A program made the position numbers and the translations under genes. From assembly GCA_023151275.1 (NCBI GenBank), contig JAKLJI010000004.1, forward strand, positions 87,891 through 151,890: a stretch of 64,000 nt of DNA. The letters run 5' to 3'. Under the pieces are notes generated by a model. The model searched no databases. It worked only from the letters and a program-made list of their open reading frames with translations, and was not told where the DNA came from. Positions 38,049-49,241 of this stretch are shown here, one piece after another (positions within the stretch are counted from its first letter, which is position 1; each line of letters opens with the position of its first letter). This stretch comes from Bacteroidia bacterium (GTDB lineage: Bacteria; Bacteroidota; Bacteroidia; UKL13-3).

Positions 38049-38213
38049 CCCAAATTATGGATTTGAACTTCGTTATGAGGGCAAAAAGCCTAGGAAATTC
38101 ATTATTTACGAGCAAGGTATAATTCATCGTAATGGTGCGTAAGGGAAGTTGAATTTACGCCCAATTTCGAAGGTATATTGTTTAGGAATACATGCTTTTT
38201 CGCCTATTCCGGT
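38049..38213 (+). mobile_element. MITE-like element, decayed copy 1
   Basis: CCCAAATTATGGATTTGAACTTCGTTATGAGGGCAAAAAGCC...TTTACGCCCAATTTCGAAGG...CCTATTCCGGT aligns along its length with copies 2 and 3. Confidence 0.7.
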
Positions 38214-40170: not shown

Positions 40171-40178
40171 ATGTTTAT

Positions 40179-40345
40179 CCCGGAATACGCATTTGACCAT
40201 CTATTACTGTCCAAATTGCCTGTGAAATTGGGCGTAAACTCAGTTTCCCTCCCTCACCATAACGGTGCATTATGCCTTGCTCGTGAAACTGCCAATTTCT
40301 TTGGCCTTTTGGCCCTCATGACCAAGTTCAAATGCATAATCCGGG
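40179..40345 (-). mobile_element. MITE-like element, copy 2 (reverse orientation), 167 bp
   Basis: CCCGGAATACGCATTTGACC...GTTCAAATGCATAATCCGGG, flanked on both sides by TTTAT; about 95% identical to 48885-49051. Confidence 0.88.
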
Positions 40346-40346
40346 T

Positions 40347-43300
40347 TTATTCTTTTATAATTTTTCGACTTAGTTTTTTACCGTCTTTATTTACAGTTAT
40401 TAGGTAAACTCCTGGTGCAAATTGGCTGAAATCTAAATTTAGCTGCTCACTTAAGGCTGATTTTGAAATCTCCATTTGTCTGCCCCAAATATCGAAAACG
40501 GCCACCTGATTGCTTAATACGCCCGGAAAGTCGAGTGTGAGTTGGTCTTTAACCGGATTTGGGAACACAGAAAAAGTCTCTTCTTCTAGTTCATCTTTGC
40601 CAAGCGCCCAGTTTGTAGTGAAACTGTACTCAAACTGGTCCCACTTGAATTGCGAATGCGCATAAAACCTGTTCCTTGTGAACTGTTGGCCCACCAGGAT
40701 AAACCATCAAGTCCGGTGTCCTCAACTATAATTTTATAGCATCCACCTAAATTGTATTCAAAGCTGTGCAATGTGCTTGCCTGACTAAAGCCCTGGAAAT
40801 CGATTTGTTTTCCGTTTTCATCCAAAATACGGAAGGAGTTCTCGTTCGGATTGCGGTTGGTATAAAACTCAAGTTTGAAAACAGATGGCAAAATTTCAGG
40901 CTTGTTGAATGGACTGATGAATCGATTGTTAAGCGTGTAGTCATCAACCTTACCATTCACCAATTTTAACTCAGCAAAAAACTGATTTCCCGAAGCCAGC
41001 ATGCCTTGGTTGTAAAGATTGCCAAGAGGAAGTTGAATGGTTACAGTTTGCATGGGCATGAGCGTTCCATTCCAGGTATAGCTTTGCTTTTGTTGATTGG
41101 AATTTATCCAATAGCTTATTTCAATCGAATTTATTGTTCCTGAACCACTATTTTGAACCACCACCTCTGGTTGTGCACAAATTGGATTGCTTCGGCCATA
41201 CAGAATTTTATCACTTGGTTTAATCACTTCCAGAATTCGTGCGTCGTTGCTGAAGTTAAAATCACCATAACTTACCAATTGATGAGCTACCACGTAATTG
41301 TAAGCGCCACCTTCTTTTGGTGGAACTGAAGCCTCATAATCAATTGTAACCGGTTGGCCTGGAGTTAACAAAGGGGTGAGGTCATTTTCTTTTAGCAAAG
41401 AAGCTTCTCCCGGACACCAGCCTTCACGGTCGTAAAGCCAGGTACCTCCTTGAGGAAATACCGGGTTGTAGGAGCAATCACGGGTAATCGACCAGGTGTA
41501 ATCAACTGTGCCACCATCTATATTTAGCATGTGGTCAACCTGGCCACCATTTGCCTTAAACTCACCTTCAGCGCCATGTCCGGTAATGGTTGAACGCATT
41601 TTGAAAGTTTTGGCATCTGCTCTCAGTGGAACCTGAACCGGTGCATAACGACTGTTGTTGTTGATTGAAGTTAGGGACGCGTTGCCTGCTCGTGGTGTGC
41701 CTTGCCAAATTTGATTAAATTCAAGAACCGGACGAACCGGAGTTCCTACAATAAACCAGAATTCAACGTCATTTTGTTCTTGATTTTGTCCCCCCAAGGT
41801 CATTAAAATTCGTTTGTCTCCTTTTAAAATGGGTGCAAAATCCGTAACATCAAAATACCAGGTTTTTCCTTCAGGTCCTAAATTCAAACCAATACCATAA
41901 GGGGTAACAAACGACATAATTTCATTGTACCAAGGAAATCTGCGTTTGAAGTTTAGGTTACTTTGAATCAAAGAATCAGCATCTAAAACGGCAATAGAAT
42001 CAGCAATTTTCCAGCTATTGCCAAATTCTGTGTAAATCCGTGAAGGAAATGCGGCATAAACCCAATCGGTTTTTACCACGCTAATTTCATCGGAGGCTAG
42101 CGGAGTTTGTCCTTGTTTGGATATCACAGCATTTTCAATCACCTGGGTTAATGGCCGGATAACAGAATCGGTTATGAGCGTATCAATCACCTGAACTTGA
42201 GCCACTGTTCTTCCGAAACTCATTTCTGGCCGTATTTCAGCATTCATAAAACCAGAAACCAAGTTTTCACCACGCTCTGCTGTCCATTGGAGCTTGTTGC
42301 CTATCACCCATTTTCCATGTGCATATTCAAAAACCGAATCGCTTTTACCTTCATTGAATTTATAATAGCTCACAAGACCATCCGAAAAATCAGCATTCTC
42401 GCCAACCAATGAGGTTGAAATTACCGAATCGGGGAAGCTTTTGTTCCAAATACCCAAACTTCTGATTCTTCCTTTGTAGTTATTTCCTAAGTTTTGGTCT
42501 TTACCCAGCATAAGATTTAAGAGGTTTAAGGGCTTTGTTTTTCCGGTTCCGGAATGCCACAGTTTTCCATTCAGAAAAATCTTCATGATTCCGGTTTGGC
42601 TGTTCTTGGTGAAAACCCAATGGTTCCATTGACCACCTTGCTCAGAAGCACTCGCAATTTTATTAATTCTGTCGTAGGAACCAGCCGAAAATCCGGCATC
42701 AAAATACACATTGTTGCTGCTGTGCGGTAGGTGAATATTGAGGTGACGGTTTCCGGGGTTTGCATCATAGCCATACAGTATGGTTGTAGAAATGGGCATT
42801 TGCTCCTCATTTCCTCTTACCCAAAAACTGATAGTTAGCTCATTTCTGATGCTCGAAAAGTCGGTTGTGTCGAGGCGAATATGCGCGTTATTGGATAAGT
42901 CGAGGCTGAAAGGAGAATCAGAAAAAAGTCCCGAACCCAAAGCAAGACTTCCTCTTTTTACCTGAAGGATTGCAGGGGTTGAAGGATTGTTCCAGCTTAG
43001 GTCTATCACCAAGTTGGAAAGGCCATCCCAAGTATATCCATTTAGAAAATTTATGCGATTTAATCCCTGAGCAAAAGCAAATGGACCATTAAAAACCGTG
43101 ATTAAACTGTCGTTAACCAAAGAATTGCGTGGGATGCTGCTGAGCTTAGTGGATAGAATGGAAACTTTAAGGTTTGAAAGTGAAACAGTTCCTTGGTTGA
43201 TATTCAAGCTTAGGTTGTTGAGCGGACCAGCAGAAAAGCCTGCACTTCGCAATTCGGCGGCGCCAATCAATACTTGAAAACGGCCGGAATGTTGCTGAAA

Positions 43301-43818: not shown

Positions 43819-45783
43819 CTAATTTTTCAGAAATCGAATGTAAAAACTGTCAAATTCTGTTTTCATAATCAGAAGGTATAAGCCACTTGTTAACTCCTCA
43901 ACCCGAATTGGTTCATTTGCTGAAGTACCTGTTTGACCTTGTTTAACCAATACCCCTTCCTTTGAAATGATTTCCCAGGAATCCCAATCAACTGGGTCCC
44001 GGAACTGCAATTGGTTTTCAACTGGGTTAATCAAAATGGGATTGTTTGATTCTAATTTATTGCCTATTTCTAAAGTCTTGGAATAATTGATGCTTCCATC
44101 AAAATCAACCTGAGCAATTCTATAATAAATAGAATTTGATTGAGTTGAATAGTATTGGTACTTGCTTGTTTTTAAGCTGTTCCCTGCACCCTTTACAAAA
44201 GCCAAACGCGAGAATTTAATTCCGTCCTCACTTGCTTCGAGAAAGAACCCCTGGTTGTTTTTTTCAAAGGCACATTCCCAATTCCAAATAAGTTTAGTAG
44301 CATCAACCTGAATTGAAAAATGGGTAAATAGAACAGGAAGAATTGGTGAGAACATGTCGGTTGCATTCAAAAAACCATCGGTACTTCCTGCCGAGGATTT
44401 TGAAAAGACGGCAGAGCCTGGGTCAAAATCAACTGTATTAGAGAATTGACCTGAGGCGATTATGTTTCTGGTAGTGAGGTTGCATGCAAGTGCGTTCACA
44501 CTTTCAAATCCGGCAGAACCTAAAGAATAGGCCCATTCAAATTGGCCGGAGGCGCTTAGTTTACACACATATCCATCTTCGGCACCAATAGCAATTAATG
44601 GATAAACCCCAGTTCCCGGATCAAAATCAGCTGTATCTTTAAACCAACCTCCTGCATAAATGCTCCCAATATCATCTGTACACAAGGCTATTCCATTTTG
44701 ATTAGAATTCCCTCCAAGTGATGCCGCCCAACTAAATATTCCATTGGATTGGAAGGACGCAACGAACACATTTACCACTCCAGTGGAGCTAAGCTGAAAA
44801 TTTCCGGGTCCAGGGTCAAAATCAACAGTACCAGTATAATAACCTGTTAAAACCACCGAATTGTTAGCACCTATGCATACTTGTTTGGCAAGGTCAGCAC
44901 CGGTACCTCCAAAGGTTTGGGCCCATACAAAGCCAAAGGAAGAGTCCCATTTTAGAATGAAATTATCGTAAGTAAAACCAGTATTTGCTGTTCGATTTTG
45001 AACTCCGGCATTTACATCAAAGTCAACTGTTCCTCTAAATGAACCACAAATAACCAAGTTTCCAGTTTGATCAATTTGTAGCGAACCCAGAGTCTCGAGC
45101 AATGACCCGCCCAATGTGGTTGCTCGAATGAGGTTTCCATTGGGATTTAGCTTTGCAATAAACATATCGTTTGAGCCCGAAGAGGTTAAATTCAATGTCG
45201 TTGTTGCGGGGTCGAAATCTGCTGTTCCTTGAAAGATTCCCCCTACATAAACTGCCCCTGATTTGTCACAAGTTACAGATACCGGTTCTTCTGATCCGCT
45301 ACTTCCAGAAAAAGCTTTGGCCCAAATTACATTGCCTTGAAAGTCTAGTTTAGCAAGAAAACCATCAAAACTTCCAGCTGCTGTTAATGTAGCAGATGGG
45401 TTACCCGCGATAAATGAAATAGTTCCCTGAAAAGTACCTGTAATGTAAATGTTTCCATTTGCATCCAGACAAATCGCATTTCCGTCATCTGCCAGATTTG
45501 ATCCAAAATTTTTTGCCCAAAGCAATTGCCCTCCAGAGTTCATGCAACTCACAAAGCAATCTGAATTTCCAACAGCACTTAATATGAGCGAGTTTGGGGA
45601 CGGGTCGAAATCCGCAGAACCTGTGAATGTCCCTATAGAATACACATTTCCCAAAGTGTCAACGCAAACTGATTTTACGGTATGCGTGCCACTTCCTGCG
45701 AATGTGCTGGTCCAATAATGAATTTGAGCCTTTGTATTAAAAGCTGAAATCAAAATAAAGAGCAGTAGTAAAAGTTTTTTCAT
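43819..45783 (-). CDS. Secreted repeat (SBBP-like beta-propeller) protein with C-terminal sorting-like domain
   Basis: Signal peptide; repeated G..DFDP.....L...G..D.F...L...G...WA...GG motif. Confidence 0.75.
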   Translation of the reverse strand: MKKLLLLLFILISAFNTKAQIHYWTSTFAGSGTHTVKSVCVDTLGNVYSIGTFTGSADFDPSPNSLILSAVGNSDCFVSCMNSGGQLLWAKNFGSNLADDGNAICLDANGNIYITGTFQGTISFIAGNPSATLTAAGSFDGFLAKLDFQGNVIWAKAFSGSSGSEEPVSVTCDKSGAVYVGGIFQGTADFDPATTTLNLTSSGSNDMFIAKLNPNGNLIRATTLGGSLLETLGSLQIDQTGNLVICGSFRGTVDFDVNAGVQNRTANTGFTYDNFILKWDSSFGFVWAQTFGGTGADLAKQVCIGANNSVVLTGYYTGTVDFDPGPGNFQLSSTGVVNVFVASFQSNGIFSWAASLGGNSNQNGIALCTDDIGSIYAGGWFKDTADFDPGTGVYPLIAIGAEDGYVCKLSASGQFEWAYSLGSAGFESVNALACNLTTRNIIASGQFSNTVDFDPGSAVFSKSSAGSTDGFLNATDMFSPILPVLFTHFSIQVDATKLIWNWECAFEKNNQGFFLEASEDGIKFSRLAFVKGAGNSLKTSKYQYYSTQSNSIYYRIAQVDFDGSINYSKTLEIGNKLESNNPILINPVENQLQFRDPVDWDSWEIISKEGVLVKQGQTGTSANEPIRVEELTSGLYLLIMKTEFDSFYIRFLKN

Positions 45784-48843: not shown

Positions 48844-48880
48844 GGGACTGTGTAGCTTTAAGCTACTGGTCCCTTTTTTT
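48844..48880 (+). terminator. Rho-independent terminator
   Basis: GGGACTGTGTAGCT-TTA-AGCTACTGGTCCC followed by TTTTTTTT. Confidence 0.85.
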
Positions 48881-48884
48881 TGAA

Positions 48885-49051
48885 CCCGGATTACGCAATT
48901 GAACTTCGTCATGAGGGCCAAAAGGCCAAAGAAATTGGCAGTTTCACGAGCAAGGCATAATGCACCGTTCTGGTGAGTGAGGGAAACTGAGTTTACGCCC
49001 AATTTCACAGGCATTTTGGGCAGTAATAGATGGTCAAATGCGTATTCCGGG
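48885..49051 (+). mobile_element. MITE-like element, copy 3, 167 bp
   Basis: CCCGGATTACGCAATTGAAC...GGTCAAATGCGTATTCCGGG with 5-bp direct repeats TTGAA at 48880-48884 and 49052-49056. Confidence 0.88.
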
Positions 49052-49241
49052 TTGAATACAGCTACCAAGAATTGGGTATAAAGAAGAGAAGTCGGGTTGG
49101 GAGAAAAGGCAAGATTCCTGATGAGCATCAGGTTGGTTATTGATTGGTGTCATTCTGATGCTATTCTTTGAACGGATTGTGCTATTTTCTAAAATTTGGA
49201 AAGGGGAACATTGTGTTACACTAACCTATAAACCTAACACA

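Follow-up and report, generated by a model that had tools for sequence, protein, structure and literature searches.

The window (the whole 64,000-nucleotide stretch of DNA that was analyzed) contains a 167-bp element with a TTGAA immediately on each side (Table 1). The ends of the element form 20-nt terminal inverted repeats, the left end reading CCCGGATTACGCAATTGAAC and the right end, as its reverse complement, CCCGGAATACGCATTTGACC, with three differences between them. A preliminary description of this DNA had proposed a 167-bp element with inverted-repeat ends at three differences and flanking TTGAA, and its coordinates and ends proved exact. It had further judged the element to be non-autonomous because it was too short for a transposase, which agrees with our finding that the 167 bp have no coding sequence of their own. 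When ORFs of at least 80 aa were considered, no transposase gene was found inside the element, and the sole such ORF over it (104 aa, minus strand) crosses both the element and its flanks.

Table 1. Features of the element and of its other copies in the window
Feature	Position	Strand	Remark
Older diverged copy	38049-38213	+	76% identical; duplication no longer intact
Second MITE copy	40179-40345	-	TTTAT duplication at 40174-40178 and 40346-40350
Target-site duplication TTGAA, left copy	48880-48884	.	differs among copies, matches within a copy
Left terminal inverted repeat, CCCGGATTACGCAATTGAAC	48885-48904	+	resembles IS1380 ends, CCCAGATTATGCATTAGAA
167-bp MITE, full-length imperfect hairpin without its own coding sequence	48885-49051	+
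Apical hairpin and loop	48961-48975	+	element positions 77-91; variants shared among young copies cluster here
Right terminal inverted repeat (reverse complement CCCGGAATACGCATTTGACC)	49032-49051	-
Target-site duplication TTGAA, right copy	49052-49056	.

Copies in the genome and duplication of the target

The genome carrying the window (G000) is a 3.9-Mb draft in 76 contigs. A BLASTN search with a 177-bp query produced 49 matching segments in G000, representing about 40 copies or fragments, many of which were full-length with 91 to 100% identity. Of the four congeneric genomes, G001, G003, and G004 gave no BLASTN match to the element and the remaining one, G002, contained three diverged copies. 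By their ends, 37 copies could be delimited (35 in G000 and 2 in G002), and their terminal inverted repeats were near-constant. Identical 5-mers flanked 21 of the 37, namely TTAAA in 10, TTTAA in 5, and TTGAA, TTCAA, TTTAT, ATAAA, ATTAT, and CTAAG in one each, whereas 10,000 random re-pairings of the flanks gave 4.9 identical pairs on average and never more than 12. On contig 15, a young copy was found within the end of an older copy with ATTAT duplicated, and excision in silico of the nested copy together with one ATTAT restored the end of the older copy, CCCGTATTATGCAATTGAAC. The varied flanking duplications and this nested insertion therefore identify the element as a mobile MITE that duplicates 5 bp of its target at TTNAA-like sites. 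The preliminary description had predicted many copies with variable 5-bp duplications, as was observed, and also empty orthologous sites; sites or genomes without the element were represented by the nested insertion and, at the level of BLASTN matches, by the three matchless congeners.

By simple ORF calls nearly all copies appeared to be intergenic, and the orientation of the neighboring genes was inconsistent. The copy in the window lies directly behind a T-run. Targeting of terminators was considered and rejected, as 10 of 33 copies were beside a T- or A-run, a proportion not clearly higher than the 43 of 187 found for intergenic TTNAA sites.

Relatives across the Bacteroidota

Of 395 genomes sampled from the class, 19 contained relatives, nearly all of them full-length, according to a first covariance model built from the G000 and G002 copies, and 24 (14 of 195 genera) did so according to a second-round model. 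Outside the genus, covariance-model E values reached 1e-35. In a sample of the phylum, relatives were present in 6 of 398 genomes, every one of which belonged to the same class, and a covariance-model search of seven non-Bacteroidota genomes gave no match. There was likewise no match in the plasmids searched or in Rfam 15 (E values up to 1; gathering cutoff). The genomes matched included Lunatibacter salilacus (9 matches), a Prolixibacteraceae MAG (4 matches), and a Saprospiraceae MAG (11 rows, among them two second-strand matches), so named carriers are found in the Cyclobacteriaceae, Prolixibacteraceae, and Saprospiraceae; the NCBI orders of the carriers are Cytophagales, Marinilabiliales, and Saprospirales. 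The ends and target sites of the relatives are mostly the same. Among 33 relatives other than the young copies, 16 were flanked by a perfect 5-bp duplication, with TGGAA, TCAGA, and TTTCA among the sequences duplicated. At six further loci, one of which was already in the alignment, the duplication was perfect in four and matched at 4 of 5 positions in two. The family is thereby recognizable end to end in distant Bacteroidota and is absent from most relatives.

The element as a single conserved hairpin

Over its entire length, the element folds into a single long, imperfect hairpin, with a predicted RNA folding energy of -61.6 kcal/mol. The fold was better than all 200 of 200 dinucleotide shuffles, both as DNA (z score of -6.4) and as RNA (z score of -4.9). 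In a structure-blind MAFFT alignment of 30 sequences (A3), the consensus fold comprised 53 pairs with 91.5% of the cells paired, a percentage that is favored because a structure-aware model was used to find the sequences and the same alignment supplied the structure. The covariation counts and the slid controls are the stronger evidence for the fold. Double-sided, compensatory changes were observed in 41 of the 53 pairs, the number of double-changed cells was 279 versus 85 in shuffles, and sliding the partner by one to three columns reduced pairing to 35 to 41%. The unpaired stretches TTCGTARTGAGGG and CGTAATAGA were conserved, and asymmetric bulges persisted. The interior is a conserved module of the MITE's own, with compensatory changes that extend across the class.

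Ends shared with IS1380 elements

The end sequence was scanned for as an exact pattern across 85,462 species genomes. This gave 31 stretches, close to the number that the information content of the pattern led us to estimate, and most of them are due to chance. Two of them, though, lay at contig ends in Sunxiuqinia dokdonensis, in which another contig consisted of a 1,431-bp insertion sequence with the ends CCCGCTTTATGCAATGGAA...TCAAATGCATAATCC, the right end reading GGATTATGCATTTGAGT as its reverse complement. This insertion sequence encodes a 434-aa protein matching the NCBIfam IS1380 model NF033539 (E value of 2e-77) and PF13701 (E value of 4e-48). With this protein as the query, IS1380 transposases or fragments of them were found in 8 of the 68 genomes searched from the family to which the window belongs. 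In four genomes (G030, G031, G016, and G010), the right end, CCCAGATTATGCATTAGAA or a close variant, was located 9 bp past the transposase match, and the elements were flanked by TTTAA or TTAAA-type sites. In two genomes (G185 and G046), members of the MITE family coexisted with IS1380 elements that had ends of this kind. Overall, the ends of IS1380 elements in related Bacteroidota were identical to those of the MITE at up to 17 of 19 positions, with TTNAA-type flanks. IS1247, a member of the IS1380 family, is known to make 5-bp repeats (PMC3281130). IS1380 elements (NF033539, PF13701) and the MITE thus have in common near-identical terminal repeats, TTNAA-like flanks, and a 5-bp duplication; they differ in that the MITE has no transposase gene and an interior unlike that of the IS1380 elements examined, to which it showed no similarity beyond the ends.

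No IS1380 gene was found in the 76-contig draft of G000. Among 20 genomes searched for IS1380, all of which except G000 and G002 had been chosen as out-of-genus carriers, matches above the cutoff were obtained only in G102 and G185, with none in the other 18. The carriers without IS1380 include several assemblies of 10 to 50 contigs, and the driver may have been lost, be transient, or be missing from the draft assemblies. Since the gene is missing in G000 and in most carriers, the link to a transposase is drawn from the ends and the target only, and since no cognate transposase was found in G000, our claim is limited to IS1380-type ends and does not extend to a proven IS1380 derivative. Within that limit, the guess in the preliminary description that an IS1380-type transposase was involved gained support, in that IS1380 elements of related Bacteroidota share near-identical ends and TTNAA flanks, with the gene itself not found in G000.

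The MITE is probably moved by IS1380-type transposases, judging from its ends and target. An IS1380-family transposase, either an earlier resident or acquired by transfer, would bind the CCCRGATTATGCATTWGAA ends and mobilize the MITE by cutting the target with a 5-nt stagger. Two other readings of the ends and flanks were weighed. Since TTNAA flanks most copies and reads similarly on both strands, it might belong to extended ends of the element rather than to a target duplication. This is extremely improbable and is effectively excluded by the asymmetric or rare 5-mers that occur as direct duplications within a copy (ATAAA, CTAAG, ATTAT, and TTTAT, and elsewhere TGGAA, TCAGA, and TTTCA), and the end of the older copy on contig 15 is regained when one ATTAT is removed along with the nested insertion. 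The same MITE could also be moved by a different DDE family that has CCC ends and cuts with a stagger of 5 bp; the resemblance to IS1380 ends would then be convergent or reflect only an old relationship. Most carriers are without IS1380, and G000 does contain other DDE transposase genes and fragments, those considered as a parent of the MITE being of the PF01609, DUF772, and DUF4372 types. We nevertheless consider this unlikely, given that the ends of up to 17/19 identity lie directly beside an IS1380 transposase gene in several genomes and at the same type of target. Taken together with the analysis of the fold below, it is very likely that the feature is a copy of a non-autonomous MITE that is mobilized by an IS1380-family transposase and whose fold is selected in the source copies.

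What maintains the fold

In 19 young copies, 20 of 32 singleton variants were at paired positions versus 67% expected, and 5 of the 32 were in the apex (P = 0.2). Of 22 variants shared among young copies, 9 were located within the 15 apex positions of the 167 (P = 6e-5, the apex having been picked after the alignment was viewed). This pattern fits drift after insertion combined with constraint in the source copies, and selection for mobility is therefore likelier than a host benefit at each site. Because the young copies drift once inserted, we infer that the fold is selected in the source copies; selection acting there would keep the fold, its object being either mobility or some property of the folded strand. 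At strand-symmetric pairs, G-U outnumbered A-C by 65 to 28 cells, or by 50 to 26 after clusters were collapsed (P = 0.008; the excess is modest and the clusters were hand-made), which hints that the selected form is one single strand, either RNA or DNA. A more specific and tentative proposal is that the full-length fold of one strand (RNA or single-stranded DNA) is required for mobility, such that the structure would be under selection in source copies, inserted copies would decay, and the family would persist in genomes lacking the transposase, to be moved when an IS1380 element arrives.

Long palindromes can acquire matching changes without selection through template-switch correction, a process known in bacterial quasi-palindromes, and this is a serious rival for the maintenance of the fold. 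The element is a single long imperfect palindrome, in which template switching could copy changes from arm to arm; such an origin would concern only the fold and is compatible with mobilization by IS1380. Arm-to-arm copying, however, would not favor the excess of G-U over A-C (50:26 after collapsing), and the unpaired TTCGTARTGAGGG and CGTAATAGA are conserved and the asymmetric bulges retained, so that we regard it as possible but rather doubtful. That the element is instead a regulatory RNA or repeat of benefit to the host, acting on neighboring transcripts in the manner of processed Correia elements or ERIC, would suit the stable RNA fold and the largely intergenic location by simple ORF calls. 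This seems improbable, as young copies drift without sparing paired positions, the adjacent genes have no consistent orientation, and the element is missing from most relatives.

Comparison with known elements

Bacterial MITEs are usually described as remnants of a single insertion sequence, confined to a single lineage. Correia elements target the two-base TA, in contrast to the 5-bp TTNAA of the MITE described here. Like that MITE, the Correia (NEMIS) element of Neisseria is a short non-autonomous inverted-repeat element, and its transcript is capable of folding and of being cut by RNase III (PMC10969869). ERIC, or enterobacterial RU-1, is an imperfect palindrome of 127 bp that is mostly intergenic, occurs in many genera, and has been called a MITE (PMC10969869, PMC2759123). 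Compared by description, ERIC resembles our element in being short, palindromic, intergenic, and dispersed but differs in length and host phylum, and the ends and target of our element resemble those of IS1380. Within the Bacteroidota, MITECca01 of Cardinium likewise has the ends of a known insertion sequence but is derived from IS982 and was not detected in any other sequenced Cardinium (PMC9769881), and BrickBuilt of Porphyromonas gingivalis is likewise an intergenic MITE (PMC10969869, PMC4596501) but, again compared by description, is distinguished by the minisatellite that PMC4596501 describes in it. In the open-access literature searched, no IS1380-linked MITE and no such Bacteroidota family were found, and a 2024 review contains no mention of IS1380 (PMC10969869).

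MITEs, including long-palindrome MITEs spread over multiple genera such as ERIC, are thus already established, and the conserved fold is the unusual trait here. In our reading, the element represents a new MITE family that is IS1380-linked and ERIC-like and that combines IS1380-type ends without an IS1380 interior, a hairpin kept by matching changes in the two arms, and a spread over multiple orders. The family offers a direct means of asking whether transposition of bacterial MITEs depends on their own fold, and it should be included as a repeat in the annotation of Bacteroidota genomes.

Variant forms and other observations

A longer form of about 196 to 205 bp was observed at L060 (3117-3314), L064, L041, L044, and L016 (contigs 49, 9, 11, 17, and 3). 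In its right arm, two CTATTAC repeats enclose an additional small hairpin, TAACCTGAATAATGCAATTGTTCAG, and the 167-bp form looks like a deletion product of the longer form, or the reverse. Tandem or fused composites of 332 and 352 bp were present at L030 and L033 (contigs 1 and 8) and L011 (contig 2). In L011, one TTAAA is common to two copies. The outer duplications of the L030 and L033 composites are intact, and the 332-bp unit may therefore have been mobile in its own right. Two copies on contig 33, separated by 2.2 kb, were considered as a composite transposon, but this was rejected because their outer flanks differ (TACAA and TTTAA). A larger autonomous element bordered by solitary ends was also considered; the loci examined were diverged or truncated copies, and no long element was found. 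At L059 (contig 70, 527 bp), a copy apparently interrupts a frame that by eye resembles a tyrosine recombinase.

Short elements with the same ends as the MITE were seen in Psychroflexus (L091, 6742-6909) and Prolixibacteraceae (L090, 6018-6125) MAGs and are possibly other MITE families using these ends. The Psychroflexus element is flanked by a TTTAA duplication, in a genome with no covariance-model match. L201, from a Saprospiraceae MAG, is a full-length match to the model with different ends, CCTAAATATCTAAAATGAGT and CCTAAAAATCTAAATGACTT, where the hairpin module may have switched ends. Elsewhere in the window, positions 44411 to 45622 contain direct repeats, about 42 and 21 nt long, at intervals of about 195 to 200 bases and are probably a gene for a repeat-domain protein.
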